Under the pieces are notes generated by a model. The model saw nothing but the letters and a program-made list of their open reading frames with translations, was not told the DNA's origin and ran no database searches. Below, in pieces: positions 13,699-30,228 of a DNA stretch of 64,000 nucleotides. Positions within the stretch are counted from its first letter, which is position 1. Each line of letters starts with the position of its first letter. Both the position numbers and the translations under genes were made by a program. Origin of the DNA: Leucobacter chromiireducens (GTDB taxonomy: Bacteria > Actinomycetota > Actinomycetes > Actinomycetales > Microbacteriaceae); contig NZ_RPDI01000009.1 of the NCBI RefSeq assembly GCF_003917135.1, forward strand, positions 1-64,000, in the 5' to 3' direction.

Positions 13699-13830
13699 TT
13701 CAGAGTCGGAAGCATGCCCATTGCGAGTGTGCGCCGCTCGACTTGCGTGGTAAATGTCTGAGGTTCATGCGATGGTGTTACCGCGAGCACCTACCAGTCT
13801 TAAGAACACAATGAGGATAGGGTGGTAATC

Positions 13831-14988
13831 ATGTCAGATGCATCGCGCAAAGGTTACCAATCGGAGGGCGGTCTGGAGCGAGCCGTCATTGATCTGGTGA
13901 GGGTCGGTACTCGTGGCCATGGTGCAGGGGTTCGGCAGGTTGCATCGCGCCTGATGCGTGCGGTTCCTCCTGGTGTTGAGGATGTTGAGTCGTTTCGAGA
14001 TGCGATGCACAGCGCGATCTCCGCGGGAGTTGACGGTACCGGGCTGAGGTACGTTGCCGGCGCCGTACCGACCGAGGATGACAGTGCCAAACCGTTGGTC
14101 GACATCGACCTCCTCCCGGATGGTGATGGGCTGATGCTCGCCGACGACACGATGAGCCAGCTTCGTGAGGTAGTCCGTGAACGCGAACGAGCGGACGACC
14201 TCCGCCGAGCCGGAGTGGGACTCACTCGAACGCTTTTGCTGAGCGGTCCTCCTGGAGTGGGGAAGACAATGACAGCGCGTTGGCTTGCTCAATCCCTTGC
14301 TCTTCCGTTGCTCTCGCTCGATCTGTCCTCGGTCGTGTCAAGCTATCTTGGGACTTCCGGACGGAATATCAAGTCTGTCCTGGACTATGCCAAGACAGGT
14401 CCCTGCGTTCTTCTGCTGGATGAATTCGACGCGATCGCGAAGAGACGTGACGATGATTCCGATATTGGGGAACTCAAACGAATCGTCAACGTCATTCTGG
14501 TTGAGCTTGATCGGTGGCCTGATACGAGCTTACTGATCGCAGCTACGAATCACCCTCAACTGCTGGATGCCGCAGTCGGACGCCGATTTGATCGCGCTCT
14601 CGCGCTGCCGCTGCCTGGTCGGGTCGAACGAGCAGCAATCCTTGCCAACCTCGCTGCGACAGCTCAAGCTGTCGATCAAGAAATCCTTGAACTTGTGACG
14701 GAACTCACCGCTGACCAAAGCAGCTCCGACCTCACTCGGTTCTGGTCTCTTGCAAACCGGCGTTCCGTGCTCAACGATTCCAACTTGTCAGATGAATTGA
14801 TTAGTGAACTAGCCCGTCAAGTCCAAGACACGGGTGCGGGACGTGACCGGCTTTTCCTTGCGATGCGCGACATACTAAAGGTGTCGAACCGGCAGATCGC
14901 AAGTCTGACCGGCGTTAGCCACCCCACCGTGGCTAATGGCATCAAGCGAGCAGAAGGAGCCAACGATGGCGGCCGTTCGGAGCACTGA
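13831..14988 (+). CDS. ietA: AAA ATPase of an IetAS-type defence pair
   Basis: The 385-residue AAA+ ATPase has Walker A SGPPGVGKT (about residues 138-146), Walker B VLLLDEFDAI, sensor 1 in LIAATNHPQ and an arginine finger in GRRFDRA. Its layout resembles FtsH/Cdc48-type ATPases that remodel or feed proteins. It overlaps the next gene, a subtilisin-like protease, by 23 bases. This ATPase plus S8 protease pairing is the IetAS system, known from plasmid stability work and as an antiphage system. The last ~35 residues (VSNRQIASLTGVSHPTVANG) look like a helix-turn-helix. The start is the ATG giving MSDASRKG; a GTG nine bases earlier is an alternative. GC is lower than in the flanking chromosome. 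Confidence 0.82.
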   Translation: MSDASRKGYQSEGGLERAVIDLVRVGTRGHGAGVRQVASRLMRAVPPGVEDVESFRDAMHSAISAGVDGTGLRYVAGAVPTEDDSAKPLVDIDLLPDGDGLMLADDTMSQLREVVRERERADDLRRAGVGLTRTLLLSGPPGVGKTMTARWLAQSLALPLLSLDLSSVVSSYLGTSGRNIKSVLDYAKTGPCVLLLDEFDAIAKRRDDDSDIGELKRIVNVILVELDRWPDTSLLIAATNHPQLLDAAVGRRFDRALALPLPGRVERAAILANLAATAQAVDQEILELVTELTADQSSSDLTRFWSLANRRSVLNDSNLSDELISELARQVQDTGAGRDRLFLAMRDILKVSNRQIASLTGVSHPTVANGIKRAEGANDGGRSEH

Positions 14989-17350
14989 CGGGATCTCACG
15001 TCCACTACTCGTCAACGGCGAAGCCCTACGCCTCGATGTTCAGGCCCCCAACCCAGGTGGCGGTGACAAGTACGAACCTCAGACCGTAGAGGCGGCTCAA
15101 GAACTGCTCATCCCACAGATCAACGAGGCAGCAGAGCAGGCGGAAGCCCTCTCTCCTCGCCTGCGAGCAAGCGACCGCGTGTATGTCGAAGCGAAACTGC
15201 TCCCCAACTACCTCGCCGCTTCGTATTTTCCGACCGAGTTGCTATCTCACGTCGGTGCTACCCCGGTTGGCTCACGAGCTGATACCGGGCTGTATGTCAC
15301 CAAGAAGAAGAGAGTCAAGAGTCAGACGAGGCGGCTCATCTTCGCTGTCTCCGATGACGGCTTGCGTGAGCTTCGCCGACTCATCACCCAGGGCGGACGG
15401 AACCGCACCGAGAACCAAGCTTTCGCCCAAATCCGCGAGTTAAGCGAAATCTCCTTACCGCGGCAGTCCGATGTACTTCGCACACCGGATCAGAGCGCAG
15501 ATGCATCATCGCTTCGGCGAGTCTGGGAGGCCGTGCTGCACCCTCGCGCATCCAGCCTGGGCGACGCGATACCGCTGGAGGACGACACACTCGAGCGCTG
15601 GTTCGACCTCATCGGTAGCGAAGGCGGTGAGGTGCACCGCGACTTCGTTCGTACCGTTGGCGGCCTCACATTCACCCCGGTGAGCCTCGACGCTGATCGG
15701 GCCGAACATCTCTCTCGTTTCAACCCGTTACGTGTTCTTCGACCCATGCCGGCGATCCGACCTCGGCCCCGTTTTGGTACTCGGAGTGTTCTGCGTCTTG
15801 CTGCGCCGGCCTCACGCCAACCTGTGATGACCGACGTGTCTGTAGCTGTCTTCGATGGTGGTGTTGACACCGCTCGACGCGCCAATGGTCTTTTTTCCGT
15901 TGCAGCCAAAGACCTCACCCCTGAGCCGGCCGACCAAGGCGAACTCGATCACGGCACCGGCGTGACCGGAGCTGTTCTGTACGGCCTCGTAGAGCCGGGC
16001 GATCAAGCGCCCACACCGCCGCTGCCCGTGGCCAGCTATCGTGTCCTTCCTGCTCCGCAGATCCCTGGCGATCTCGAAGGCTACTGGGTGCTCGACCGCA
16101 TCAAGGAATCGATCAAGGCCGGTGGCCACCGACTCGTCAACCTGAGCCTGGGCCCTACTCTGGCTGTCGAAGATGACATGGAACCGAACCGTTGGACGAG
16201 CGAACTCGATCAGCTCGCATGGGACGATGACGTGCTTTTCGTGGTCGCTGCGGGCAACGATGGTGACCAGGATCGAGATCTTGGGTTGCACCGGGTGCAG
16301 GTCCCTGCGGACATGGCCAATGGCCTCGCGGTCGGCGCCTGCGACGCTCCGTCTCCGGAGAAGCCCTGGGCGCGTGCACCTTACTCATCCATGGGGCCAG
16401 GGCGCCACGGCGCTCGCGTTCAGCCGCTGGGTGTCCAGTTCGGTGGAGCAGAAAAACGCATGTTCAACATCGTTCGTGCTGACGGGAGTTTCCTCGAAGC
16501 CGCTGGCACGAGCTTCGCTGCACCCGTGACCACGCACGCGCTCGCAGACCTCGTCACGCGACTCCCCAGGGTCAACAGCAGCGTCCTGCGCGCATTCGCC
16601 ACTCACTTCGCGGAGCGCCCAACTCAGCATGTGAAGCTTCGCGACGAGGTCGGGTACGGGCGACAGCCTCTGACTTTTGAAGACCTGATGGAATGTGGGC
16701 CCAACGAAGCTCACGTTCTCTATGTCGATGACATCGAGCGAGGCGATTTGCTCGGCTATCAGATCCCGGTCGCGGGGCAGCTTTCGAGCGACGTGAAACT
16801 GCAAATCACTCTCGCATACGCGTCACCCGTCGATCCAACACAACCCACCGAATACACCAGTGCCTCACTCGAAATGGTGATGCGACCACACCATCGCATG
16901 CATTCGTTCCGCCCGCCCAAGGGATCGAACGCGAAGAGTCGGACTCTTGACATCAGCGGCCTGGACGCGCGCGCACTGCTCACTCAAGGATGGACGCCCA
17001 GTCAGGAACCGGTTACCAAGACCCTCGGCAGCGCCAAGGCTGGAGCATCCGAGGCGCAACTGCGTGATAGCGGCAAGTGGGAGACCGTGCGACACTACCG
17101 CGTGACGCTGAAACCCGGGGAAGTAGAACTACCCCGCCTTGAGGTGTCATACGTCGCACGTCGAAGCGGGGCACTAGATAACTCGCCGACAACCATTCCG
17201 TTCGCCTTGATCGTATCCGTTGTTGATGAGTCATCAACCGATGACATCTACGATTCTGTCCGAGCACAGTTCACCGCGCTGAGGCCAGCTCAACGTGCAC
17301 GCACGCGGCTTCGGCCCCGAGGATCTGGCGCCGATCCCCACTGGTACTAA
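14966..17350 (+). CDS. ietS: Subtilisin-like serine protease of an IetAS-type pair
   Basis: The 794-residue S8-family peptidase has all catalytic residues visible: D297 in AVFDGGVD, H329 in ELDHGTGVTG, the oxyanion N431 in VVAAGNDGD and S516 in AAGTSFAAPV. No signal peptide is seen, so it should act in the cytoplasm, as expected for a defence protease. An N-terminal region of about 290 residues precedes the protease domain and a beta-rich region of about 250 follows. AAGGAG lies just before the ATG, inside the end of the ATPase gene, so the two are translationally coupled. The protein target is unknown. Confidence 0.83.
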   Translation: MAAVRSTDGISRPLLVNGEALRLDVQAPNPGGGDKYEPQTVEAAQELLIPQINEAAEQAEALSPRLRASDRVYVEAKLLPNYLAASYFPTELLSHVGATPVGSRADTGLYVTKKKRVKSQTRRLIFAVSDDGLRELRRLITQGGRNRTENQAFAQIRELSEISLPRQSDVLRTPDQSADASSLRRVWEAVLHPRASSLGDAIPLEDDTLERWFDLIGSEGGEVHRDFVRTVGGLTFTPVSLDADRAEHLSRFNPLRVLRPMPAIRPRPRFGTRSVLRLAAPASRQPVMTDVSVAVFDGGVDTARRANGLFSVAAKDLTPEPADQGELDHGTGVTGAVLYGLVEPGDQAPTPPLPVASYRVLPAPQIPGDLEGYWVLDRIKESIKAGGHRLVNLSLGPTLAVEDDMEPNRWTSELDQLAWDDDVLFVVAAGNDGDQDRDLGLHRVQVPADMANGLAVGACDAPSPEKPWARAPYSSMGPGRHGARVQPLGVQFGGAEKRMFNIVRADGSFLEAAGTSFAAPVTTHALADLVTRLPRVNSSVLRAFATHFAERPTQHVKLRDEVGYGRQPLTFEDLMECGPNEAHVLYVDDIERGDLLGYQIPVAGQLSSDVKLQITLAYASPVDPTQPTEYTSASLEMVMRPHHRMHSFRPPKGSNAKSRTLDISGLDARALLTQGWTPSQEPVTKTLGSAKAGASEAQLRDSGKWETVRHYRVTLKPGEVELPRLEVSYVARRSGALDNSPTTIPFALIVSVVDESSTDDIYDSVRAQFTALRPAQRARTRLRPRGSGADPHWY

Positions 17351-17448: not shown

Positions 17449-18693
17449 ATGTCGAGTCAGCTGCGCATCGGCCCAGGAGTTCCGGTCGAGAAGGAAGCAA
17501 CAACCGGTATCTCGATCGATCGACTCCGAACGATCATCCAAGATTCCCACCTGAATTTTCTTATCGGCGCAGGTACCTCCGCACCATTTTTCGAACCTCT
17601 CGGAGATGTCGAAAAAGCGCTCACTGCACTTCGGACTGCTGACGAAGAAACCAGACTTGCTCGGGCCTCAGTGCAGGGATACTTCTTCCACAAGGTGCTC
17701 GTCCCGAATGCCAAACTTCTGAATGCCCGTACTGACGCCGGCGCGCAGTCGCTGATCAAAACCTACGCGCGGTTCATGGCCGTTCTCAACCGCGTCCTGT
17801 TGCGGCGACGGAGCACTCTCCTCGGCAAACAAGTCAACTTGTTTACGACCAACGTCGACATGGCGTCAGAAGTGGCACTCGAACTCCTCGAGATTGATAC
17901 CAATGACGGGTTCTCCGGCAAAATTCGACCACGTCTCGACCTCGGCGAATACAGCACCCTCCGATATAGACAAGGGGGCCGTTTCGAGTACCGATCAGAG
18001 ATCCCCACTGTCAATCTCTTTAAAATTCACGGTTCGGCCGCCTGGCGAGGCGAAGGCGACGACATCTATTTTGACCACCAGCTCAAACTGGTGCAAGGGG
18101 TGCAAGCGGCGTATGAGGCGGCGAGGCCCTCCTTGATTCGCATCACTAGGCCTGCTCAGGTAGACGCGGTCAGGCTGAGGAGACGGGCAGCAGGAAAAGT
18201 GCGTAGCGATGAAGTCAAAGATTTCGTCAAGGCATACTCGCGACTCCAGATCGTCAACCCCGAGAAAACCAAGTTCGCGAGCACGGTTCTGAATAAGACC
18301 TACTATGAGCTCCTTCGTCGCTTTGCGAACGAGCTTGAGAAGGAAAACAGCGCCCTGTTCGTTCACGGTTTCTCGTTCCGCGACGAGCATCTTCTTGATC
18401 TAGTGACGCGGGCAGCTGCGACCAACCCTACTCTTCAAGTGATTGTCTTTTGCTACGATCGCGACTCCTACAAAGAGATCAAACAACTCTTCCCCATGGA
18501 ACGGGTCAAGAACGGCAACATCCTTTTCGTGCGTCCTGCGGAACCCGAAAAGGGCGAGGATGAGCGGAAGCTCTCACTCGGTACCGTTGTGGAGGACTTC
18601 CTTGAGCAAGTGCTGATTGAGAAGACACCGTCTCCAGACCACATCATCGAGCTCAAGCTTGACTCCGCTGCCGGGGATTTGGCCAGTGTTTGA
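17449..18693 (+). CDS. SIR2-domain NADase of a SIR2-HerA defence system
   Basis: The 414-residue protein has a SIR2 fold. The nucleotide-binding GAGTS lies at residues 40-44, the NAD-contacting TTNVD at 133-137 (N135, D137) and the catalytic His in FKIHGSAAW is H194. A late FVHGFSFRDEHLLDLV motif is typical of SIR2_2-like defence proteins. In SIR2-HerA systems (also called Nezha) this subunit degrades NAD+ upon phage infection. The next gene overlaps its 3' end by eight bases and encodes the HerA partner. GAAAGG precedes the ATG. It starts 98 bases after the protease gene on the same strand, making a compact defence island. Confidence 0.85.
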   Translation: MSSQLRIGPGVPVEKEATTGISIDRLRTIIQDSHLNFLIGAGTSAPFFEPLGDVEKALTALRTADEETRLARASVQGYFFHKVLVPNAKLLNARTDAGAQSLIKTYARFMAVLNRVLLRRRSTLLGKQVNLFTTNVDMASEVALELLEIDTNDGFSGKIRPRLDLGEYSTLRYRQGGRFEYRSEIPTVNLFKIHGSAAWRGEGDDIYFDHQLKLVQGVQAAYEAARPSLIRITRPAQVDAVRLRRRAAGKVRSDEVKDFVKAYSRLQIVNPEKTKFASTVLNKTYYELLRRFANELEKENSALFVHGFSFRDEHLLDLVTRAAATNPTLQVIVFCYDRDSYKEIKQLFPMERVKNGNILFVRPAEPEKGEDERKLSLGTVVEDFLEQVLIEKTPSPDHIIELKLDSAAGDLASV

Positions 18694-20623
18694 CGAGAAT
18701 GCGACTCTGAAACGAGATGCCGTATTCAGTGTTGGACGAGTCGTCGCCGTAGAGGGGCGACAAATACGTGTTGCCGTCGACAAACTCAAGAACAGTGCGC
18801 ATCTTCTCTACCAGGGAGAGATCGTACGGAACATCGCCGTTGGGAGCTACATCAAGATCGCCAAGGGATTTGGAGAGCTTGTAGCCTCGGTCGACGGTGA
18901 ACGCATACGAGAAGAGCGAGTCGCCTCGCCCGATTACAAGCGAAACGTCGACAGCCTTGTGCGTGAGCTCGAGGTGAGCCTGGTTGGATACTTCGAGAAC
19001 GGCCGCTTCCAGAGAGGCGTCCGAGAGATGCCTCTCCTCGATAACGAATGCTTCATCCTCAGTGAGAACGAGTTCCAGGCTATTCACACATTTGCTGACG
19101 CGAAGACCCCAACGATCCCGCTGGGTGTCCTGGCAATGGAGCCTACGCAGCCAGTCAGCATCGGGGTTGACAAGATATTCGCAAGCCACATCGGAGTGTT
19201 CGGAAACACAGGAAGCGGCAAGTCATATTCGCTCGCGAAGCTCTATCACGAGCTCTTCAAGCAGTACGGCAGTCAGCCAGGTTTCCTATACAGATCCCAG
19301 TTCGTGCTCATTGACTTCAACGGCGAATACGTCAACCGTGACGCCGAAGGTGACGATGACCATGGCGCGTCGGTAATCATCGAGGACGAACTCAAGGCTG
19401 AATACCGCTTATCAACTCGAACGACCTCCGGGGATCGCTTGCCGCTTCCCTCGTCCGCCGTAAACGATCCCGTGTTCTGGTCGATCTTGCTCGGCGCTAC
19501 AGAGAAGACTCAAGCGCCGTTCGTGTCGCGTGTTCTGAGAGGGGATTTCTGGGATCGCCTACTTCCAGATTCATCCGCACTGCTCGCGGTGATTGGAGAC
19601 ACTGTAGCGAGAGCAACCAAGAGCACCGACCCGTCAATGGATCGACTCCTGCCGCACAACTTCCTTGAAGAGATTGAAGAATGCCTGGGTGTAACGGCCT
19701 CTGGCTCTTTCAAAGCGATGGTTCAGGACTTCAAGACCAACCTGAACTATTTCACTCGGAACCACAACTTCTTTTGGGGAGGCCCAAACCCAAAATGGTC
19801 TTCCGACCAAGACTGGGAAGATTTCATCGCCAACAAGATCAAGGCTGTCACTCAAGACTTTTCCGCAGTGACCGACGTCGACCTTGTCAGGTTCAAACTC
19901 GTTCTGCAGTTCTATAAGGATGTTATTGGCGGGTTTGTGAACCGCGAGCACATTGGCCCGCTCATGAAGCGTCTTCACAGCCAGATCCACGGTATTAAAC
20001 GACTGATCACAGTCTCAGATGACACCGTAGCCTCGAAGCCGCTTACCGTCGTCTCGCTCCGTGACGTGAATCTTGAGATGCGCAAGGTCATTCCCATGAT
20101 CCTCTGTCGCCACCTCTACGAATCTAAGAAGATCACCGACCAAGCGAACGATCGCCACCTCAACCTCATCATTGACGAGGCGCACAACATCCTCTCACTG
20201 GACTCCTCTCGAGAAAACGAAGCCTGGCGAGACTATCGTTTGGAGACCTTCGAGGAAATCGTCAAAGAAGGCAGAAAATTCGGTGTCTTCCTAACTATCG
20301 CAAGCCAGCGTCCGCATGACATCTCGCCAACCATTATTTCGCAATTGCATAACTACTTTTTGCATCGTCTTGTCAATGACTTGGACATCCGGGCGATTGA
20401 GAAAGCGGTGTCCTATTTGGATCGGGTGTCATTCGAATCGATGCCGATTCTTCCAACTGGCACCTGCATCCTGTCTGGTGTCGCGGCGCAGATCCCTGTG
20501 ATGGTCAGTGTTGACGAACTGGAATCACGGTTTGCTCCCAATAGTCGAACTATGTCGATAACAACGGCATGGTCGAGTCCGCTCCCGCCACCGGACGCGA
20601 GTGGCGATGAATCGCCGTTCTAA
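18686..20623 (+). CDS. herA: HerA-type ATPase/helicase of a SIR2-HerA system
   Basis: The 645-residue protein starts at a GTG inside the end of the SIR2 gene (VFDENATLKRDAVF). A HAS-barrel-like N-terminus is followed by the HerA/FtsK-type ATPase: Walker A GNTGSGKS (173-180), Walker B NLIIDEAHNIL (D497, E498) and the TIASQRPHDIS sensor region with a likely arginine finger near the end. HerA forms a hexamer that in this pair assembles with SIR2 into a large complex. The overlap implies translational coupling. The C-terminus looks complete. It is the last gene before the tRNA-derived attachment site. Confidence 0.86.
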   Translation: MFDENATLKRDAVFSVGRVVAVEGRQIRVAVDKLKNSAHLLYQGEIVRNIAVGSYIKIAKGFGELVASVDGERIREERVASPDYKRNVDSLVRELEVSLVGYFENGRFQRGVREMPLLDNECFILSENEFQAIHTFADAKTPTIPLGVLAMEPTQPVSIGVDKIFASHIGVFGNTGSGKSYSLAKLYHELFKQYGSQPGFLYRSQFVLIDFNGEYVNRDAEGDDDHGASVIIEDELKAEYRLSTRTTSGDRLPLPSSAVNDPVFWSILLGATEKTQAPFVSRVLRGDFWDRLLPDSSALLAVIGDTVARATKSTDPSMDRLLPHNFLEEIEECLGVTASGSFKAMVQDFKTNLNYFTRNHNFFWGGPNPKWSSDQDWEDFIANKIKAVTQDFSAVTDVDLVRFKLVLQFYKDVIGGFVNREHIGPLMKRLHSQIHGIKRLITVSDDTVASKPLTVVSLRDVNLEMRKVIPMILCRHLYESKKITDQANDRHLNLIIDEAHNILSLDSSRENEAWRDYRLETFEEIVKEGRKFGVFLTIASQRPHDISPTIISQLHNYFLHRLVNDLDIRAIEKAVSYLDRVSFESMPILPTGTCILSGVAAQIPVMVSVDELESRFAPNSRTMSITTAWSSPLPPPDASGDESPF

Positions 20624-20840
20624 GACGAAACGGGGAGCGCCTGGGACCGAATTAGGGATCGTCGCCGAGCCGGCTGACGTAAACCCCACATAAACTCATC
20701 TCGTGGCGTCGCCGGAACTGCGATTCTAGTGGGCCAATCTAGTGGCCAACGTCCTGCAAAGCATGAAATCTGTGACGCGCTGTGCAACGTGAGAAAGAGA
20801 ATAACCCCGGTCAAGTGGGGTAAATCGGTCAGCTTCTTAC
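20624..20840. other. Gap before the attachment site
   Basis: No gene is seen here. Two near-identical words (TCTAGTGGGCCA and TCTAGTGGCCA) lie around 20725-20750, about 100 bases before the tRNA-derived site. They could be integrase arm-binding repeats; this is inference. Confidence 0.3.
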
Positions 20841-20884
20841 CTGGGGGTCAGGGGGTCGCAGGTTCAAATCCTGTCAGCCCGACC
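20841..20884 (+). other. attachment site: 3' part of a tRNA gene, probably tRNA-Pro(GGG)
   Basis: The stretch reads as an anticodon loop with GGG, a variable region, a T arm (GCAGG-TTCAAAT-CCTGT), the acceptor 3' strand CAGCCCG and the discriminator region ACC. The bases upstream do not pair to give a 5' half, so the tRNA is not complete here. A tRNA 3' end next to excisionase and integrase genes is the classic footprint of tyrosine-integrase insertion. An 18-bp core (20852-20869) recurs at 28128-28145. Confidence 0.75.
20852..20869 (+). repeat. att core direct repeat, left copy
   Basis: GGGGTCGCAGGTTCAAAT is identical to 28128-28145. It covers the variable region and T arm of the tRNA fragment. 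The two copies would be attL and attR of a 7.3-kb element. Confidence 0.75.
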
Positions 20885-20885
20885 G

Positions 20886-20921
20886 AAAAGCCGCGGAAAC
20901 TCAAGGGTTTCCGCGGCTTTT
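20886..20921 (+). terminator. Perfect intrinsic terminator after the tRNA 3' end
   Basis: The 15-bp perfect stem AAAAGCCGCGGAAAC / GTTTCCGCGGCTTTT has a 6-base loop. The T-run at its 3' edge fits a Rho-independent terminator. It sits right after the tRNA acceptor end, as expected for the original tRNA gene. Confidence 0.9.
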
Positions 20922-21052
20922 GAGGTTGGTAGATTTGATCTTCCCGACGAAAACCCGACGAAAACTCCTCCCGACGCAGGTGTTCTCGACTTCCCCGACC
21001 GGATACTTCCCGTTGGTTCCGGTCGCTGTTTCAGGGTGTGCACCTGTCCTCC

Positions 21053-21301
21053 ATGGATACGCAGCACCCCACCCCTCAGCCCCCGCCGGGGCTCGAACCG
21101 CTCCTCAGCATCGAGGAGTTGGCGACGTACCTCGGCATCCCCATTTCGACGCTCTACGACTGGCGGGTGCGCGGCCACGGCCCACGCGCGCATCGCTTCG
21201 GCAAGCATCTGAAGTTCGCGCTCTCCGACGTGCGCGCATGGATGGCGACGCAGCGCGAGCCAGAACCCGCTGCCGAGCCGGCATCGCTGGATCGGGGGTG
21301 A
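21053..21301 (+). CDS. xis: Excisionase-like helix-turn-helix protein
   Basis: The 82-residue protein has a MerR/excisionase-type winged helix (LLSIEELATYLGIPISTLYD, then WRVRGHGPRAHRFG and KFALSDVRAWM). Such proteins bend DNA at attachment sites and direct the integrase to excise. It lies between the tRNA-derived site and the integrase-like gene, four bases before the latter, the usual order in actinobacterial integrative elements. The ATG giving MDTQHPTPQ is preferred; a GTG 15 bases upstream is possible. No strong ribosome site is seen for either. Confidence 0.82.
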   Translation: MDTQHPTPQPPPGLEPLLSIEELATYLGIPISTLYDWRVRGHGPRAHRFGKHLKFALSDVRAWMATQREPEPAAEPASLDRG

Positions 21302-21305
21302 TGGC

Positions 21306-23420
21306 ATGAGTAGGCCCCGCCTCACCATCGGCACCTACGGCGACATCGGCTATCAAGCCGCCTCCTCCGGACGCATGACCGCCTACGCGCGTTACCGCGA
21401 TTGGGATGGAATGACCCGAGTTGTGCAGGCCACCGCGCAAACGCAGAAGGCCGCAGAGCGGGCGCTGAAAGCGAAACTCGCCGAGCGCACCCTGTACCAG
21501 CCGACGGCGGGCACGCTGACCCCAGATAGCCCGTTCGAGGACTTGGTTGCCTACTGGCTCGCTGACCTTGACCTAGACGACCGCCTCTCGCCGAGCACGC
21601 GGCAGTTGTACGAGCGGAACATGCGCACACTCGTGACCCCCGCGTTCAGAGGGCTCACGCTTCGCGAGATCGGGGTCGCGCGGTGTGACCAGTTCTTGAA
21701 GCACCTGTCGAAGCAGAGTTACAACCGAGCACGACAGGCTCGCGTCTCGCTTCGGCTCGCGTTCGCCCTCGCCGTGCGCCACGAGGTGTTACCGAGGAAC
21801 CCGCTCGATCACGTCGGACGCTTGCGGAAACCACCGCACACGCCCGACGCGCTCCCGGCAGTCGGTCGTGGTGGTGTGCTCGAGACGGCGATCCACGCGC
21901 GCGGACGCAGTTACGACATGACCGAACTCCACCGCTGCATCAGCCCCGAATACGCGGCATTGACGCTCACGATGCGCGACCGGGAGAACCCCGACGATGT
22001 GTTCGACAAACTCGCCGCGATGGGGCTCGTGACCCTGCACGAGAGTGAGGACGAGGCCCGGGACCAGATCACCGAACAAGCCCAAGACGGTGAGGTGATC
22101 ACCGTCGCAACGAACGAGGAAGCCGCCGCCTTGAACGAGCGCATCCGCGTCGCACGCGTCGAGCACGGCGAGGTCGACGACACGTTGACCGCGACCGGGA
22201 ACGATGGCCTCGCGATGGGCGCGGGCGACCTGATTCAGGCCCGCAAGAACGACACCACGATTGGGGTCGCGAACCGGCAACAGTGGATCGTGCGTCAGAT
22301 CACCGAGGACGGTACTGTGTACGCCCGAGAAGTCGGTGACCGCGGCAAGAAAGCGCTCCGCATCGTCGCGCTCCCGCCCGAGTATGTGGCCGAGCACATG
22401 CACCTGTCCTATGCCGCGACCGCGTACGGCGTCCAGGGCACGACCGTTGATACCTCGCACACGATCCTCTCTAGTGCGACGAGTGCAGCGGGCGTCTACG
22501 TCGGCATGACAAGAGGCCGCGAGACCAACCGGCTGCACGTCGTGGCCGAGAACCTGAATGACGCTCGCGCGCAGTTTGTCGCCGCGATGGGACGCGACTC
22601 TGCTGACCGTGGCCTCGACCACGCCACACAGCAAGCAAAGGAGGCCGTGCGTGGCCTTATCGCGGACGGCCCAGTGCAGCGAGTCAATGAAGCAATCGCC
22701 AGACTGACCGCCGAAGTCGAGAAGGCTGAGCAGTCTGCGGCACGCTGGACACAGAGCGCCGCGAAGTTCGACGCACAGCGCGCGGCGCACCGAACAGAAC
22801 GAGAAGAGCACGACGCACTTGTGCGCGAGGCCAAGGTCGCCGCTGAGTTGATGCGAGCCGAGGTCACCGAACCTCTTGCGATTGAGGCCGAAGCGGATGG
22901 AGCCGCCGCTATTGCCGCGTCGGACGCCGAGATGGCAGCGACAGCGCGACTCGCGAACGCAGGCCGGTTCGGGAAGCGCAGGGCTCGCGCCGAGCAGCGC
23001 GCCGCGACCGATCACGTCGATACTGTCCGGGCACAGGTGCGCGCCGATTGGGGTACCGAACCGCCGTACACCGCCGAGTTGCTTCCGGCGTGGGCGGCGC
23101 GCCAAGCCGCGACTCGTGCCGAGCGAGACCCGCGCGTGCTCGACGCCGCACGAACAGTAGGGGTCCTGACCGCAGACGGCACAGCGATGGTGGAGCGGCA
23201 GGAGCAAGAGCGTCGCGCGCTGGGAATTCGCGAGTACGGCCCAACCCAGGCGCGGCGTATGCGGAACGGCATGGGTGGGATCAAGCCGCACAGCAAAGCC
23301 CGAGAAGCCGCCTCTAATGCCGCCATCGCGCGGCGGGAAGTCGAGGAGCTGCGCGCCCTGCCAGTTACCGAAGCCGCCACGCGGCTCGACGCGCAACAGG
23401 CGGCCTCTGAGGAATCTTGA
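21306..23420 (+). pseudogene. In-frame chimera: integrase N-terminus fused to relaxase C-terminus
   Basis: The 704-codon open frame joins two unrelated proteins. Residues 1-183 match the arm and core-binding domains of the integrase at 12517 (RDWDGMTRVVQ, LYERNMRTLV, ARCDQFLKHLSKQSYNRARQ). The match ends at TPDAL. From residue 184 it is a MobF relaxase C-terminal half, entering inside helicase motif III (PAVGRGGVLE) and continuing through the late helicase motifs (YAATAYGVQGTTVDTSH, VYVGMTRGRETNRLHV) and a coiled tail. The integrase catalytic R-H-R-H-Y residues, the relaxase nuclease domain and Walker A/B are all missing. A deletion that happened to keep frame is the simplest origin. It is typed as a pseudogene because neither activity can remain; a residual DNA-binding product is possible. 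Confidence 0.8.
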
Positions 23421-23569
23421 CGCCTCGCCGACGTGCGCAGGCGGCGGCTTGGCGACCCGTTCGTACGCGGCTCGGATCGCACCGACCCGCGCCGAGAAGG
23501 CCCAGGCCGCAGCCTGTGAAGCACCCCACCTCCTGTTCAGATAAAGAACCTTCGGCGTACACTGAGAGC

Positions 23570-23824
23570 ATGTCTATGGACGTTGCCGAGGTTGAGCAGG
23601 CGATGCTCGCGCTAGACAAGCGCGACCTCGCCGCGCTGATCCATCGCGGCATTCAGGCTCTTGATGAGATTGAGACGGAAGCGCCGCAGTCGGAAATCGA
23701 TGCGGCGTGGAACGCGGAGTTCCGCCGTCGCATTGACGAAGTCGATTCGGGGCAGGTCGAACTCTTGACCGCTGACGACGTTGACGCGAGTGTGAACGAA
23801 CTCCTGGCGAAGTTCCAGGGCTGA
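23570..23824 (+). CDS. Addiction-module antitoxin (RelB/Unstab_antitox type)
   Basis: The 84-residue acidic protein has the pattern of small addiction-module antitoxins: an N-terminal helix (VEQAMLALDKRDLAALIHRG) followed by EIDAAWNAEFRRRIDEVDSG and a C-terminal toxin-binding strand/helix. It would neutralise the toxin encoded 14 bases downstream and repress the operon. A second ATG two codons in is an alternative start. The pair lies between the chimeric gene and the ABC-3C operon, where it would stabilise the element. Confidence 0.8.
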   Translation: MSMDVAEVEQAMLALDKRDLAALIHRGIQALDEIETEAPQSEIDAAWNAEFRRRIDEVDSGQVELLTADDVDASVNELLAKFQG

Positions 23825-23838
23825 TCGCTCTGCTCCGC

Positions 23839-24138
23839 GTGCATCCTGAGACGGCAGAAGAACTCCTCGACGCGATCCAGCACTATGAAGAGTGGGCTGG
23901 GTCTGAGGCGGCGTTCGCTGTCGCCGCGAAGAAGGCCCGCACCGATGCCGCGGAGTCGCCGAATGCCTGGCCTCCTGTCGAGCACTGGAAGCCGCCGCCG
24001 CTGGTTCGTAGTCGTCGAATCGGCAACTTCCCCTACCGCGTCATCTACTACTCGCGCGGAGATGTGGTGGCAGTGATCGCCTACGCACACGAGAAGCGTC
24101 GCCCCGGCTACTGGGGCCGTCGTGCTGAACGACGATAA
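23839..24138 (+). CDS. RelE/ParE-type toxin
   Basis: The 99-residue protein has the RelE/ParE fold signature: an N-terminal helix pair (ETAEELLDAIQHYEEWAG) and a beta-rich C-terminus ending in FPYRVIYYSRGDVVAVIAYA and HEKRRPGYW, the usual tail. Whether it is an mRNA interferase or a gyrase poison cannot be told. The GTG start leaves a 14-base gap from the antitoxin; a more upstream non-ATG start would overlap the antitoxin. Confidence 0.82.
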   Translation: MHPETAEELLDAIQHYEEWAGSEAAFAVAAKKARTDAAESPNAWPPVEHWKPPPLVRSRRIGNFPYRVIYYSRGDVVAVIAYAHEKRRPGYWGRRAERR

Positions 24139-24237
24139 CCCAGTCAGCACTTCGCGAGAAGACGACCTGATGCCTTGACCGGCAACTCGTAGGTCTTGGA
24201 TAGGCTTGAGAAAGCGAAGGAGCTGGAAGGAGAGCCT

Positions 24238-25266
24238 GTGAGCCAGAATATTGCCGTAGTTGGAAATGGCGATGTTGACTTCCGCTTTCTTGAAGTGAGA
24301 TTTGCTGGCGAGGCAGGTGCGCGCGAGGCGTTTGAGCGTCTTGTCGCCGACATCGTTGGGATCGTGCATCCTGATGTTCGAGAGATCCAGGCGAACCCAG
24401 GCGATTGGGGTATCGACGCTTACGTGGGTGATCTCGGACAAGATGGTGAGGTGCATATCTGGCAGTCGAAGTTCTACATGAACGGATTTGGCGCAACGCA
24501 GCAAGATGATGTCCGCGAATCGTATTCTTCGGCAATAGAGGCCTCGAAAGCCAATGGATACAAGATCAAATCATGGACTCTCTGCATTCCGTGCGAACTT
24601 GACGCCCCGATGTTGAAATGGTGGACAGGCTGGAAGAGGAGAAAAGAAAAAGAACTTGGCATCGTAATCCAGTTGGAAACAGCGGGGAACCTGCGACGCC
24701 GATTACAAGCGCCAGCTGGGCAGTCCGTGCGTGAGATGTATTTTTCTCCGTTGTTCAATGTGCCTCAAGAAGATGATGGCGAAGCTCCGACCCGTGGACT
24801 TCAAATGCTCCCCGAAGAGGCTGAATACGATGATGCCTTGTTCGTGCATCAGCTGAATGAAGCGGGTATCTCAGAGACAAACTCCGCTCGGGAAGCATTC
24901 TTTAACGCAGAGATACTGGAGCGTGAAATCGCGGATAAGGGCATCGGCAGAGAGCTCACCGGGCTCGCCACGTGGCGTGTTCGCGTTGCTTCTACCTGGT
25001 CAAATGCGTTCATTTCGGCATGCGAAACACCGGGGCAGCGATTGTTGCCAGGCCTCTACTCCAATGTCGTACGTTCAATCGAGAATGAACATGCCACCGA
25101 AGCAAACGCACTCAGAGCTCATGTGCTTCACGGGGTCGGACTGCTTCATCAGTCCGTGGATAACGGGAAAGCAGGTTGGGTGCGCGATTGGAGAAGAGTC
25201 GCCGCAGACTTCCTTGATGGCGCGCTAAGTAACATCTCTGAAAGCGAAGGGGAGCAGGATGGTTGA
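24238..25266 (+). CDS. Mrr-like restriction-endonuclease-fold protein (effector of an ABC-3C-like system)
   Basis: The 342-residue protein has a PD-(D/E)XK nuclease core near its N-terminus: GDWGIDAYVG (D60), E71 and the IWQSKFY strand with the Q-x-K pair (Q76, K78). This is the arrangement of Mrr-type nucleases. The rest is helical without a recognised domain. AAGGAG sits before the chosen GTG; a TTG 42 bases upstream is less likely. Its stop overlaps the next gene by eight bases. Gene order nuclease, small middle protein, Rad50-like ATPase is that of ABC three-component conflict systems, where the first gene is the effector. Base composition is distinctly less GC-rich than the flanks. Confidence 0.75.
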   Translation: MSQNIAVVGNGDVDFRFLEVRFAGEAGAREAFERLVADIVGIVHPDVREIQANPGDWGIDAYVGDLGQDGEVHIWQSKFYMNGFGATQQDDVRESYSSAIEASKANGYKIKSWTLCIPCELDAPMLKWWTGWKRRKEKELGIVIQLETAGNLRRRLQAPAGQSVREMYFSPLFNVPQEDDGEAPTRGLQMLPEEAEYDDALFVHQLNEAGISETNSAREAFFNAEILEREIADKGIGRELTGLATWRVRVASTWSNAFISACETPGQRLLPGLYSNVVRSIENEHATEANALRAHVLHGVGLLHQSVDNGKAGWVRDWRRVAADFLDGALSNISESEGEQDG

Positions 25267-25864
25267 GAAGCCCGACGCGCAGAAAGAAGCCGTTCTCCCA
25301 TTTCGCGCTGAATCGATTCCTGCGTTTAGGATGGCACAGCTTTTGCTCGTCTTAGAGAGCGCCCTCCAGCACGAGAAGAAACTTAACTTGGAACGCCTGT
25401 CCGTGATTGAGTTCCTTGCCGCAAACCCTTTCCTAGTTCTTCCGGCGGGCTCAGAAGCCTCCAACAGACTAAGGCTGCAGGGCTTTGGTCGACATTCCAT
25501 CGACTATGCTTCACCAGGCCAGCGGTATGTCTCTCGACGCGAAAGAATTTCTTCGGATGCTGCTCAACTGGTCTCTTTAGGGCTAGCAAGCATCTCTGCG
25601 TTTGACGGGCAAAGGGTGATTACCATCACTCAATCCGGAAATAATGCGGCGGATACTCTTTGCTCGGTGTACGCCGACGCTTACCGGCAAAGCTTGCAAG
25701 CGGTTCTTCCAATAGTTACCAAACTCACATCAAAGAAGTTGCGCGAGAAATTGGAAGATTGGCTTCGTGTGGATTCAGTTCTCTTCGATCTTTTTGACGC
25801 ACCATCAGCTGACGAGCTAGGCGCCGAGCTCTCATCGCTTCCTCTTCCAGGCGCTCTTTTCTAG
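25259..25864 (+). CDS. ABC-3C middle component-like protein
   Basis: The 201-residue protein has no catalytic motif. It looks like a helical, winged-helix-type adaptor (LNLERLSVIEFLAANPF; RISSDAAQLVSLGLASISAF; VITITQSGNNAADTL). Its size and place between an effector nuclease and an SMC/Rad50-like ATPase fit the middle component of ABC three-component systems, thought to link effector and ATPase. The ATG overlaps the nuclease stop and the ATPase begins 10 bases after its own stop, so all three are one operon. The function is inferred from context. Confidence 0.65.
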   Translation: MVEKPDAQKEAVLPFRAESIPAFRMAQLLLVLESALQHEKKLNLERLSVIEFLAANPFLVLPAGSEASNRLRLQGFGRHSIDYASPGQRYVSRRERISSDAAQLVSLGLASISAFDGQRVITITQSGNNAADTLCSVYADAYRQSLQAVLPIVTKLTSKKLREKLEDWLRVDSVLFDLFDAPSADELGAELSSLPLPGALF

Positions 25865-25874
25865 GAATCACAGC

Positions 25875-27944
25875 ATGACATCCCCCGCATTCAATATTCG
25901 AGCTCTTCGACTGGTGGGCGCCCTTCGCTCATATCAAGTTAATTTCACCGATTCGGATGATGCCGATCGTATTCGCGACCTTTCCATCATTGCTGGAGAG
26001 ATCAGCACAGGTAAGACGACCGTGCTGGAGTTTATCGACTGGTGTCTAGGTGCAAAAGAACATCCTGAACACGATGAAATAGTGGCGAATGTGCGTTCGG
26101 CTCAGCTCGCTATTGATATCTCGCAGTCAGAAGAAGCTGAAGCGAAGCAACGCCGATACGTTATCGAACGGCCGTTGGGCATGGCGTCCACGAAAGCATT
26201 CCTCTATGAGGGGGATTTCGACTCAATGGTCGCCCCTCCCGTGCGCTCATTCACATACGATCCCGCCGAATCGGAATCCCTTTCTCATTACCTGCTTCAG
26301 TTATGCGGACTAAGTGGCCTACGGCTTGACCAAGCCCCAACGCAGGTGGATTCGAAAACTAGCGTACTGAGCTTTCGAGACCTGCAACCGCTGTGGTTTC
26401 TCACGAATCGACGTCTCGACAATGGCAATCTGGCTCTTGAACATCATCCTCATCGATCGATCAAGTTGAACCAAGTCGTCAACATTCTTTTCGGGGTCTC
26501 AGACAATGATGGTTCTTACTTGTCGCGCGCTGTCGAGGAACTTGGGGCTGAAGAACGGGAGCTTGGCCGCGCCGTTCAAACACTGCGTGCGTTCATGTCC
26601 GACGCAGGGTTCACTAGCATCGAAGAGCTGGACGAAGAAAGCGACAAACTAAGGGTTCAGTCGGCTTCCCTTTCTGCCCGAATTAGAGTTATCGATGATC
26701 GAGTCGCGGCAAGAAGCGACTTCACATCCGAACTTCGTGGAGAGTACGCAAGCGCGCAAAGAGAAGCGCAACGTGTTCAGCTTAAGTTACGTGATCGGGA
26801 GACGCTTGCGAGCAGGCTTGAGCCTTTGAGAGCGCAGTATGCAGATGAGATCCGTCGACTTGACCTGGTTGCGGAATCCATCACCCTGTTTGATTCTCTA
26901 ACAGTGGTTACCTGTCCAGTGTGCCAGAGCAAATTGGAGGACTCTCCTTGCGTTGAAGATCAACGCTGCTCACTTTGCCATACAGAACTCACTCCCGGCG
27001 AAGCCAGCACGCCACTTGATCTCTCTTCAGAACACCGAAGCCTCACGCTTCGGTTGAACCAACTCTTGAAGTTCTCTCAGGAGGTTCGTTCCGAGGCCGA
27101 ATCGCTTCGGAATGATCTAGACGAGGTGCGCAAACGCGCGGCTCGTGCGCAGGACTCGCTTGATTCAGCATCAGCGGAGGTTATATCTCCCTATCTTGCC
27201 GAGCGGGATCAGATTCAGCGAGAACTGGTGCAGGTTCAGGCAAGCTTGAAAACTTTGCAAAAGGCGCGGCAGATGCTCCTGCAATTGCGTCAAAGAGAAT
27301 CCGAGTTGCTACAAGTTTCGTCGGCGTTGAAGGACGCGAGAGCGCGCAAAGCGAACTACCTGGCGGAAGCTAATCCCCGGGACACAATGCTTGCTGCGGT
27401 TGCCAATCGCATGCACGAGATTCTTGTCGACTTTGAATATCCGAAGATTGATCTCGTGCGTCTCGAGAAGAATCTTGTTCCTCACGTTAGAGGAAAACGT
27501 TACGACAAAGTAGGCTCCTCGGGCGCCATGACTCTTATAGCTCTTGCATGGGAGTTGGCTCTGTTTGAAATCGCGTTTGAGAAAGGCTCGGGGCACCCCG
27601 GCTTCCTGCTCGTTGATAGCCCGCAAAAGAACTTGGTGCCCGGCTCCGTGTCGACGGTAGGCGATGCAGAAGTTGCAGAGTTGAACGCCTCGATCGCGAC
27701 TCGACGCAGACATATTGTCGATAATATCTACGCGCATGTGGAGCGCTGGCTTGCCGCGCATACCGGGGCTCAGATTATCTTTGTAGACAACCAGCCTCCA
27801 AGCAACATGGATTTACATGTGGTGATTCGTTATTCTCAGCACCCGGATCAGCCGCCGTATGGGCTGATTGACAATGAGGACGGGCGTGAAGCTTCACGTG
27901 AGTTGGAGGCGAAGGTGACCGAGCTCGGTCCGGATTCCGAATGA
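25875..27944 (+). CDS. Rad50/SMC-like ATPase of an ABC-3C-like system (DUF3732 type)
   Basis: The 689-residue protein has an ABC ATPase split by a coiled coil. Walker A is GEISTGKTT (41-49). Coiled-coil segments span about 215-345 and 385-505. A zinc-hook-like cluster lies at the apex (C347, C350 in TCPVCQSK; C365, C368 in CSLCHTEL). The C-terminal half has the signature region GSSGAMTLIALAWELALFE and a Walker B-type FLLVDSPQKN, where Asp is followed by Ser rather than Glu, as seen in DUF3732-type proteins. It probably senses DNA or a phage structure and gates the nuclease. The gene ends ~180 bases before the right att copy. Confidence 0.78.
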   Translation: MTSPAFNIRALRLVGALRSYQVNFTDSDDADRIRDLSIIAGEISTGKTTVLEFIDWCLGAKEHPEHDEIVANVRSAQLAIDISQSEEAEAKQRRYVIERPLGMASTKAFLYEGDFDSMVAPPVRSFTYDPAESESLSHYLLQLCGLSGLRLDQAPTQVDSKTSVLSFRDLQPLWFLTNRRLDNGNLALEHHPHRSIKLNQVVNILFGVSDNDGSYLSRAVEELGAEERELGRAVQTLRAFMSDAGFTSIEELDEESDKLRVQSASLSARIRVIDDRVAARSDFTSELRGEYASAQREAQRVQLKLRDRETLASRLEPLRAQYADEIRRLDLVAESITLFDSLTVVTCPVCQSKLEDSPCVEDQRCSLCHTELTPGEASTPLDLSSEHRSLTLRLNQLLKFSQEVRSEAESLRNDLDEVRKRAARAQDSLDSASAEVISPYLAERDQIQRELVQVQASLKTLQKARQMLLQLRQRESELLQVSSALKDARARKANYLAEANPRDTMLAAVANRMHEILVDFEYPKIDLVRLEKNLVPHVRGKRYDKVGSSGAMTLIALAWELALFEIAFEKGSGHPGFLLVDSPQKNLVPGSVSTVGDAEVAELNASIATRRRHIVDNIYAHVERWLAAHTGAQIIFVDNQPPSNMDLHVVIRYSQHPDQPPYGLIDNEDGREASRELEAKVTELGPDSE

Positions 27945-28127
27945 GAATCAGTGGCGACGAGCCATGCTCCCCGCACCCGACGAATACCCGACGGAATCGT
28001 CCGTGACGGTTCCCAGGCGATCGGCTACACTCGGAACAGGCGATGTGCCTACTCCCTATGTAAATCAAGCGAACCCAAGACAACCCAACGCAATCAAAAT
28101 AGCCTCTGATCAGGCATTTTGACCCAA
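27945..28127. other. Gap between the ABC ATPase and the right att copy
   Basis: No gene is seen here. The sequence becomes AT-rich toward the right att core (for example CAATCAAAATAGCC near 28090). Confidence 0.3.
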
Positions 28128-28145
28128 GGGGTCGCAGGTTCAAAT
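28128..28145 (+). repeat. att core direct repeat, right copy
   Basis: GGGGTCGCAGGTTCAAAT is identical to 20852-20869. The bases beyond (TCAGGTAACGCC) do not continue the tRNA acceptor arm, so this is only the core and not a tRNA gene. Confidence 0.72.
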
Positions 28146-28205: not shown

Positions 28206-29924
28206 CTAAATCAAACCGCGCAAGCGCTCCCGCAACGCCGGGTCGCAGACGTAGACGTACGTGCCGCGGATTCCCCGGGTGAGGAGCACCGTGTAGATGT
28301 TGCGGACGTACTGTAGGAGGTCCTCGTCCGTGTACTCGATGCCGCGCTTCGGGTTGTTCTCGCGGCCCTTCTTGTCGTGGTACTCGGCTCGGTCAAAGAC
28401 GACGGTTCCGGTTGCCGCGTCGAGGCGGAGGTCCTTGCCGATGATCACGCCCGCGTAGTTGAGGTCGTATCCCTGCACCGTGTGGATCGAGCCCACTTCG
28501 TTGATCGAGTCGGGGGAGTTGATCCAGTCCTTCTGCGTGGAGTTCCAACGCAGCTGCTCGCCGTCGAGTTCGATATCGAACGCGCTCTGGTCACGCTTGC
28601 TCCGCCACGGCCAGGCGTATCCCGCCACCAGACGCGCCAGCCCGTGCTCCGCATTGCGTTGCAGGATCTCATGGCGCATCTCACCGAGGTCGTCGAAGAA
28701 GCGGAGATCGTATCCAGGGAATGACGCGCGGTGCGCCGGGGGAGCGCCGCCGAGCAACGCTCGGACGTAGCCAACGTAATCGGCGTCAGCCGCGATCCGC
28801 ATCTGCGAGCGGAGCGGGTAGACGCGACCGTTCGCGCCGACCTCCCTGAGCAGCGCCGTAGTGGTCTCCGCCGAGAGATCCGCGGGGCGCACGCTCTGCT
28901 CCGTGTCGAGCATGAGGATCGTGTGGGTGCTGAGTTTCCGGATCCAATCGAGCTGGGTGAGTTCCGGATCGTCGTGCCCGAAGAGCTTCTCGTTGATCGC
29001 CGCGAACTTCTGGTTCAGCGGTCCGGACGCCTGATTTGCGCGCTGGTTCAGTCGATGCGCCTCGTCCACGATGAGGAGGTCGAAGGGGCGATCGCTCTCA
29101 CCGACCGTGAACGGGGTAAACACCATGCTCTTGTCGAGGCCGGGAGTGAGCGCGAACACCTTCGCGATCGACTCGCGCAGCGACTGCTGCGGAACGACGA
29201 TGCCGACCCGCAGTGTCTCGAGGAGCTCCGCGTGCCCCGGCGTGAAGAACTCACTGAAGAGCGAGTCGCTGTCGGGGGCCTCATCCGCGCGGTGGCGGCG
29301 AATGTCCTCCAACAACTTCAGCAGGTAGATCGCCACAACAGTCTTGCCGGTGCCAGGATTTCCCTGCACCACGACTGTGCTGGGGGCGCCCGTCTCAAGA
29401 TCCGTGAACAGCCCCGAAAGGATGTCCTCGACGGCCACAGCCTGGTCGTGGTTCAGCGCCTTGAACGGCGAAAGCTTGAACAGATCACTGTTGATGATCT
29501 CCGGCAGCGTGCGCTGAAACAGGTGCTCGTTGGTGCGCAGCTGCTCGAAAACCGTATCGAATGTGCGGCGGTAGCGATCCCGATCGAAATAGTCGGCGTC
29601 GGTGATTCCCGCGTTCTGGTTGAGGACCTGCAGTCGCCCGTCCCCGGAGAACATGCGGATCAGGAAGGACTCGAGATCGAGGCAGGCTGACTTGTTGAAC
29701 GTCTCATCGAGAACGACGCGCACCCACTCGAGCTGCCGCTTCTCGACGGAGTCGAGGTGCTGGCGCATCCGCCCCTCGGCGTTGAGCGACTCGCCGACGT
29801 ACACCTCGCGGTCGTTCGACATGACGTAGACCACGGGCCAGTTGCGGTGCTTCGCGCTCGCTGCGCCCCAGGCCCTGATCTGTTCCGAAGCAAATGGAAA
29901 CCGCTGGATCTCAGAGACGGTCAT
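28206..29924 (-). CDS. GIY-YIG nuclease domain fused to a DUF2075 (Schlafen-like) helicase
   Basis: The 572-residue protein combines an N-terminal GIY-YIG fold (VVYVMSN...VYVGES...GRMRQHL, about residues 31-57) with a DUF2075 ATPase: Walker A GNPGTGKTVV (188-197), Walker B DLLIVDEAHRLN, a SQMR motif, and late helicase elements around GSIHTVQGYDLNYAGVIIG and TVLLTRGIRG. Such proteins are DNA/RNA helicases or nucleases of uncertain job, often near defence genes. The ATG start overlaps the upstream pyrophosphohydrolase gene by 14 bases, so they form one operon. A longer open frame upstream is only the antisense side of that gene region. Confidence 0.83.
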   Translation of the reverse strand: MTVSEIQRFPFASEQIRAWGAASAKHRNWPVVYVMSNDREVYVGESLNAEGRMRQHLDSVEKRQLEWVRVVLDETFNKSACLDLESFLIRMFSGDGRLQVLNQNAGITDADYFDRDRYRRTFDTVFEQLRTNEHLFQRTLPEIINSDLFKLSPFKALNHDQAVAVEDILSGLFTDLETGAPSTVVVQGNPGTGKTVVAIYLLKLLEDIRRHRADEAPDSDSLFSEFFTPGHAELLETLRVGIVVPQQSLRESIAKVFALTPGLDKSMVFTPFTVGESDRPFDLLIVDEAHRLNQRANQASGPLNQKFAAINEKLFGHDDPELTQLDWIRKLSTHTILMLDTEQSVRPADLSAETTTALLREVGANGRVYPLRSQMRIAADADYVGYVRALLGGAPPAHRASFPGYDLRFFDDLGEMRHEILQRNAEHGLARLVAGYAWPWRSKRDQSAFDIELDGEQLRWNSTQKDWINSPDSINEVGSIHTVQGYDLNYAGVIIGKDLRLDAATGTVVFDRAEYHDKKGRENNPKRGIEYTDEDLLQYVRNIYTVLLTRGIRGTYVYVCDPALRERLRGLI

Positions 29925-30228
29925 ACTTCTCGCTTCGCCCGCGGGCCTTCTCGATCGGGTACTTGGCGCGCGTGTGCGCGAGCTTCTCAGTGACAATCGT
30001 GTCGGGATCGAGCCCCAAGCGGTCTGCGAGCAGCAGACAGTAGGTGAGCACGTCAGCGAGTTCGTCGCGGGCCGAGGCGAGGTCCGCGTCACCCCACTGG
30101 AAGCACTCCAGGAGTTCGCCCGCCTCGATGCTGATGCTCTTGGCGAGATTCTCCGGGGTATGGAACTGGGCCCAGTCTCGCTCGGCGACAAACTCGCGAA
30201 GCGCCTCGCGTGTGGGGTGCTCATACAT
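29911..30228 (-). CDS. MazG-like nucleotide pyrophosphohydrolase
   Basis: The 105-residue all-alpha NTP pyrophosphohydrolase has the metal-binding pattern E-x-x-E...E-x-x-D: SIEAGELLECFQW and RDELADVLTYCLLLADRLGL. Members hydrolyse (d)NTPs to monophosphate and pyrophosphate, for house-cleaning or to deplete nucleotides. The end overlaps the DUF2075 gene. The ATG giving MYEHPTREAL is chosen; a TTG nine bases upstream is possible. Confidence 0.85.
   Translation of the reverse strand: MYEHPTREALREFVAERDWAQFHTPENLAKSISIEAGELLECFQWGDADLASARDELADVLTYCLLLADRLGLDPDTIVTEKLAHTRAKYPIEKARGRSEKYDRL

Follow-up and report, generated by a model that had tools for sequence, protein, structure and literature searches.

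The open reading frame at 21306-23420 (+ strand) in the 64-kb stretch of Leucobacter chromiireducens DNA analysed here (the window) is very probably a fairly recent chimeric pseudogene, formed by an illegitimate join between the 5' part of the integrase gene of a tRNA-Pro island and the 3' part of a MobF relaxase gene. A 7.3-kb island (20852-28145) that carries a Lamassu defence system has the frame at its left end. On this reading it is a single case of a mobile defence island losing its mobility, in which the integrase was destroyed by an illegitimate join, the cargo and the ends stayed in place and the Lamassu system was left fixed in the chromosome. The context outweighs the fusion itself, as the island belongs to a family of small tRNA-Pro islands, in which the defence genes between the conserved ends differ from one to the next of three delimited members.

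The frame is open for 704 codons, and its parts and the sequence immediately behind it are as follows.

21306-21854, + strand: integrase N-terminal part (residues 1-183), 64% to the integrase at 12517 and 77-78% to tRNA-Pro island integrases, with a PF14659 match
21852-21854, + strand: junction codon CTC, which fits both parents on codon comparison with relatives
21855-23420, + strand: MobF relaxase C-terminal part by homology to relaxases, from what we take to be helicase motif III onward, with a premature TGA at its end
23421-23516, + strand: relaxase tail of 32 codons, with in-frame homology behind the premature stop (L064 match; 29/29 relatives have 28-40 residues there)

Both halves had been recognised in a first-pass annotation of this DNA, and both assignments hold. 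The alignment of residues 1-183 with the integrase encoded at 12517 is ungapped (118/183 identical, 64%), and these residues are nearer, at 77-78% identity, to integrases of tRNA-Pro islands from the same genus and family. From residue 184 the frame is a MobF relaxase, the homology covering residues 182/183-703 at no more than 66% identity over the whole stretch, with shorter partial matches of up to 71%. The best-matching plasmid records for the frame came from Microbacterium and Rhodococcus. The proposal that the catalytic parts of both enzymes are absent was likewise borne out. PF14659 (SAM-like integrase domain) is the sole Pfam domain left, and the frame has no match to PF00589, PF08751 or AAA_30; the full-length genes at 12517 (integrase) and 246 (relaxase) do carry PF00589 and PF08751 plus AAA_30, respectively. 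The frame thus has neither the catalytic domain of a functional tyrosine recombinase (PF00589) nor the TrwC relaxase and AAA_30 ATPase domains of a functional MobF relaxase.

What is left of the integrase comprises an arm-binding domain (approximately residues 15-62) and a core-binding SAM-like domain (approximately residues 77-158). An AlphaFold2 model of residues 1-183, computed from an alignment with only one other sequence, has a mean pLDDT of 75 and displays a sheet of three strands with one helix at 15-62, followed by a helical domain at 77-158. Its best fold match in the PDB is lambda integrase (1z1b; E 7e-4, TM 0.50 by query length), the sole match at E <=0.001, followed by single integrase N-terminal domains; a PDB sequence search with the frame gave no match at E 0.01. 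Judging from the model, the product, if translated, could still bind DNA.

The two parents meet at the codon CTC (21852-21854), within GCG-CTC-CCG. That this codon would fit either parent had been suggested earlier and was confirmed by the relatives, since GCG-CTC-AC is present at the corresponding position in three integrases (L047, L051 and L059) and CA(A/G)-CTC-(C/G)C in most of the relaxase relatives listed. Other integrase relatives have GCA-CTC, GCG-CTG, GCG-TTG or TTC. By blastn, the match with the integrase gene on plasmid NZ_CP012698.1 stops at 21844, and that with the relaxase gene on plasmid NZ_CP064874.1 starts at 21851. The sequence shared at the junction amounts to 3 bases, or 4 if the relaxase parent had CAG, and we estimate that a 3-base match is only modestly above chance. 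The junction fits illegitimate end joining or slippage, both unproven as routes.

The frame had also been described as open for 520 codons after the junction. It is open throughout its 704 codons but is not undamaged: relaxase homology runs on in frame past the TGA at 23418-23420 as far as 23516, and the full L064 relaxase matches 21849-23516 with this one internal TGA. Each of 29 aligned relatives has 28-40 residues beyond the stop column, and the window retains 32 codons of matching tail before the next stop. These 29 were derived from 42 relaxase rows, taken from matches spanning residues 640-1050 only, by removal of three with internal stops (L039, L069, L011) and ten repeats; some of the 29 (L061, L070, L018) are themselves interrupted or truncated at points upstream of the region aligned. 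Because all 29 relatives are longer past this column, the TGA at 23418 is read as a nonsense change in a once longer frame, in which decay has apparently begun. About 2.9% of single-base changes in the frame create a stop, and by a rough estimate that ignores indels one stop is the expectation from some tens of neutral changes.

Against a pseudogene stands the mildness of this decay, with 704 codons open and 65/69 relaxase and 70/75 integrase invariant positions kept. In a leave-one-out comparison, which counts changes at positions invariant in all other sequences, the relaxase part differs at 4/69 positions, the second-highest fraction of 30, and the integrase part at 5/75, the second-highest of 18. 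Within a closer subset of 13 relaxases the frame is third highest by changed fraction. Per branch length its private changes rank third of 30 (relaxase) and about sixth of 18 (integrase), and it is no outlier. This weak signal is compatible with a recent event. A recent event and weak constraint look alike in this frame, and the cut-off relaxase tail, which is poorly conserved, may be dispensable.

The island around the frame has the order core, xis, fusion of integrase N-terminus and relaxase C-terminus, antitoxin, toxin, Lamassu, core. Its other features are given below.

20852-20869, + strand: left attachment core GGGGTCGCAGGTTCAAAT, within a 3' fragment of tRNA-Pro(ggg) (approximately 20838-20884), an exact direct repeat of 28128-28145
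20943-20962, + strand: tandem CCCGACGAA repeats (copies at 20943 and 20954), probable left integrase arm sites by position
21053-21301, + strand: xis, excisionase-type helix-turn-helix protein (TIGR01764 'excise' above cut-off, PF12728)
23570-23824, + strand: antitoxin (PF09720; TIGR02574 below cut-off)
23830-24138, + strand: RelE/ParE-like toxin, start codon uncertain, 36-38% to the toxin downstream of related relaxases
24196-25266, + strand: LmuA (Lamassu), PADLOC E 2.9e-87
25259-25864, + strand: LmuC (Lamassu), PADLOC E 1.4e-38
25875-27944, + strand: LmuB (Lamassu), PADLOC E 3.1e-194
27976-27995, + strand: CCCGACGAA plus CCCGACGGA, probable right integrase arm sites by position
28128-28145, + strand: right attachment core, exact 18-bp repeat, with an inner flank of approximately 130 bp that aligns with four related islands

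The island family's conserved terminator stem follows the left core, and the intact tRNA-Pro(ggg), on another contig of the same genome (C53), contains an identical 18-bp core. The left end aligns with five relative islands and the right end with four. The xis gene adjoins the fused frame on its upstream side, the native xis-integrase start context being kept, and is 60-71% identical to the gene that precedes the integrase in 10 related loci. An attachment core present as a direct repeat, with one copy in a tRNA-Pro(ggg) 3' fragment, together with homologous ends, xis beside the left core and defence cargo, identify the stretch as a tRNA-Pro defence island; it has no intact integrase, the complete one at 12517 sitting outside the island. 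Nor was a complete relaxase found within 20852-28145, where the fragment in the fused frame is the only relaxase sequence. On the + strand of the window CCCGACGAA occurs at 20943, 20954 and 27976 only, with three distant copies on the - strand. Among the relatives listed it is replaced by AACCCATC-type sequence at the left end in 5/5 and at the right end in 2/5, so that it is the paired position of CCCGACGAA here, and not its presence in relatives, that suggests a role as arm sites.

Several further features were noted around the island. Directly to its left are IetA/IetS (13822-17350) and SIR2-HerA (17449-20623), both detected by PADLOC; SIR2-HerA is also found near the other relaxase type in two genomes (G186, G342). 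Further left, a 195-bp direct repeat (4979-5173 and 11794-11988, 91% identical) flanks LPXTG/DUF5979 and LuxR-type genes that precede the 12517 integrase on its left side. Immediately beyond the right core lies a gene for a GIY-YIG plus Schlafen-type helicase protein (28206-30224, - strand). A 76% relative of this protein is encoded approximately 2 kb outside the right core of the G255 island (L077), so it may be a preferred neighbour of the island. On contig C53, downstream of the intact tRNA-Pro(ggg), positions 1-345 (L071) encode the C-terminus of a further tyrosine integrase (PF00589), which points at the tRNA and is cut by the contig end; with this fragment beside the tRNA, further elements may sit at this site.

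Ten loci of close integrase relatives (L051-L060), two of them with short flanks at contig ends, were examined for comparison. A tRNA-Pro(ggg) was detected beside the integrase with ARAGORN in five of the ten, and the exact core in nine. Three relative islands could be bounded (8.7, 14.7 and 17.3 kb), and all three contain phage-defence genes, namely PDC-S56 plus a PDC-S37/Hhe-like protein in G299, a Type III methyltransferase with ResIII-type and DrmD-like helicases in G255, and a Type I restriction-modification system in G085. In a further genome, G073, the right core has one mismatch, and a search for the left core did not find it. The tRNA-Pro(ggg) island integrases (G299, G255, G085, G333 and others) resemble the island studied here in the N-terminal part, the xis-integrase order, the attachment core and the ends; they differ in keeping the catalytic domain that is absent from the fused frame, and their delimited islands carry defence genes other than Lamassu.

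The relaxase half has relatives of another kind. The MobF relaxases of the Microbacterium paraoxydans plasmid NZ_CP064874.1 and of equal-scoring Rhodococcus plasmids are 61% identical to the whole C-terminal part and, unlike the fused frame, are full-length relaxase-helicases without a fused integrase. On NZ_CP064874.1 the relaxase is followed by an antitoxin and then a toxin, as in the island, and the pair is annotated there as an addiction module and RelE/ParE toxin. The order relaxase-antitoxin-toxin on one strand recurs in three genomes (G275, G020, G340). The island toxin (23830-24138) has no Pfam or NCBIfam match of its own, its counterpart in NZ_CP064874.1 being the one annotated as RelE/ParE. 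The antitoxin search covered 124 loci; in G489 the pair runs in the opposite direction, in G096 the antitoxin lies approximately 7 kb away, and the examined loci of serine-recombinase elements gave no match to the pair. Overall, the closest relaxases are found on plasmids or at other loci with the toxin-antitoxin pair, or in serine-recombinase elements.

All three genes of Lamassu (LmuA-LmuC-LmuB), an independent, ABC-3C-like cargo, are present in the island by PADLOC. Relatives of this system were matched in 10 other genomes, of which three were examined (G768, G006, G140), and in these neither the relaxase nor the toxin-antitoxin pair was found beside Lamassu in stretches of approximately 20 kb. 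As the pair follows this relaxase type elsewhere but was not found beside the Lamassu relatives examined, the favoured reading of 21852-24138 is a single block that was imported, and that of the island interior a patchwork made up of cargo and two kinds of element. The arrival of the relaxase half with a toxin-antitoxin pair that follows its type elsewhere suggests that the parents of the fusion probably came from two kinds of element.

The first-pass annotation had instead proposed a short-homology deletion between an integrase gene and a relaxase gene of one element. Part of this stands, since there is a 3-base match at the junction and both halves lie inside one island bounded by attachment cores, as a deletion within one element requires. 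That the two genes originally belonged together is a different matter. A single conjugative or mobilizable element that possessed this integrase and this relaxase from the outset, and suffered one internal deletion, would account for two halves on one strand in one such island and for the 3 bases in common. Relaxases of this type, however, were not seen in the examined flanks of the ten close integrase loci (two of these flanks being short), they sit in plasmids and serine-recombinase elements, and the TrwC profile, which was the only relaxase search applied to the relative islands, had a match inside none of the three bounded ones. There were three TrwC matches in all in G299, G255, G085 and G073, those of G299 and G073 lying elsewhere. 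We therefore regard a common original element as unlikely. This possibility differs from the preferred reading only in how the two genes met, and the odds of the two overlap.

According to the preferred reading, a chimeric pseudogene with parents from two element kinds, a relaxase gene and its toxin-antitoxin pair would have entered the tRNA-Pro island. An illegitimate deletion at the 3 (perhaps 4) common bases would then have joined the integrase 5' part to the relaxase 3' part, in frame by chance, with loss of the catalytic domain of the integrase, of all that lay between the two genes, and of the ATPase and relaxase domains. The Lamassu island would thereby have been left without an active integrase of its own, and in the later decay of the frame a nonsense codon would have cut the last 32 codons off the relaxase part. 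The order of these events, deletion as opposed to other illegitimate recombination, and a product without function are what we infer from the arrangement. Neither missing half was found elsewhere in the genome: the full G342 relaxase (L064) matches nothing but the fusion and the relaxase of another type at 246, and the full G299 integrase finds only the 12517 integrase (66%), the fusion and two distant integrases. Chimeric pseudogenes generated by deletion are known in decayed mobile islands. The frame is like them in its short-homology join, in the loss of mobility genes and in being open but damaged, and unlike them in its parents, as here a gene for integration happens to be joined in frame to one for conjugation. 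From the model, a DNA-binding by-product of the integrase part is no more than conceivable.

The same junction was sought in other genomes in three samples with one genome per species, which overlap and each include the genome studied here. Among the matches listed, only this genome gave a match across residue 183 in the family sample (299 genomes, 135 with any match), the genus sample (54, of which 46 had any match) and the order sample (396, of which 169 had any match). The candidates scored were the best three per genome for the family, 21 for the genus and two for the order, and a fusion would be expected to rank first. None of the 678 matching plasmid records and none of the 45 matching phage records covered 80% of the frame, 20 and 10 of these records, respectively, being listed. 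A degenerate junction pattern had no match in viral contigs. The literature, as far as it was accessible in part, yielded no integrase-relaxase fusions or chimeric integrase genes, which is weak evidence.

Some candidates were considered and rejected. Eight matches of the degenerate pattern in genome contigs are due to chance, their in-frame translation showing no integrase upstream and no relaxase downstream, and when the halves were searched separately in viral contigs there were 4 and 20 pattern matches, none of which was confirmed. Ten truncated relaxases (G096, G320, G186, G426, G411, G489, G334, G670, G340, G631) were considered as parallel fusions and proved to be frameshifted, interrupted, partial or at a contig end, with no integrase N-terminus in their frames by tblastn.

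At one genome per species, then, the junction does not recur in independent genomes as that of a kept gene would. Uniqueness to this strain had been named beforehand as an argument against a functional fusion; it was found at this level of sampling, strains within the species lying beyond the sample. The suggestion that the protein is kept fared poorly, as it faces a premature stop relative to 29/29 relatives, uniqueness among the searched genomes and, as a weak indication, private changes that rank second of 30 and second of 18.

One way in which the fusion might nevertheless have been kept is as a catalytically dead integrase that binds the CCCGACGAA repeats and the attachment cores, and either blocks related integrases in trans or represses the xis promoter, locking the Lamassu island in place. 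The N-terminal domains are intact by sequence and by model, the native xis-integrase start context is kept, and so are both island ends and the paired repeats. These features must be set against a fusion unique among the genomes searched and an unrelated C-terminus of 521 residues that ends at a premature stop; an island that has lost its integrase would be fixed already, making an extra function needless. We consider such a role improbable. More improbable still is the specific case in which translation from the old xis-integrase start turns the fusion into a protein that binds att, lacks catalysis and stops related integrases from excising the Lamassu island. Were this true, a random deletion would have given rise to a lock holding a defence system fixed in its host, and binding of the fused protein to att would make it a testable case of a broken integrase turned excision lock.

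We also give very little credence to an assembly or library artefact, in which the two genes would not be joined in the cell. The genome is a draft of 93 contigs and the junction is absent from all other genomes searched. Three shared bases are too few for an overlap- or k-mer-based assembler to join two true sequences, and only 3 bases are common at this join. In addition, both sides are in the correct order and orientation between matching island ends, and the missing halves were not found in the rest of the genome.

Least credible of all is a functional relaxase part, which as a free fragment (helicase-C or coiled coil) would interfere with the conjugation of MobF elements resident in the same host: 65/69 invariant sites are conserved, and elsewhere such relaxases are split at about residue 430-460 while their C-terminal frame stays open (L111, and also L069, where the aligned stretch contains a further stop), but the part with the Walker motifs (AAA_30) is gone, the tail is cut off, the resident relaxase (246-3893) belongs to another type (34% over 264 residues), and the split relatives resemble frameshifts or insertions.

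Splits in relaxases of this type were observed near residue 420-462, between the relaxase and helicase parts, and consist of a frameshift in L069 and L111 and approximately 1.4 kb of extra sequence in L110. In related genomes this relaxase type also occurs in elements that have inserted into a different MobF element, within its relaxase-helicase gene. IMEs inserted in the oriT of ICEs have been published (PMC7563843), and IMEs in a conserved ICE gene are mentioned in a review (PMC5704250); within the partial literature consulted, no report of MobF relaxase genes as an IME target was found. One insertion site lies at codon ~880 of rel1 (L064, L065, L067, L068, L061+L085), with both halves of the interrupted gene seen in five genomes. 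The insert is 8.8-9.5 kb long, with TAG within one codon of the break (four genomes at base level), and a serine recombinase gene adjoins the break, that of G186 being frameshifted. A second site, near codon 592, at the Walker A motif, is occupied in two genomes (L063, L066+L086), with both halves seen in one, and the elements at this site carry a distant recombinase, 28-31% identical.
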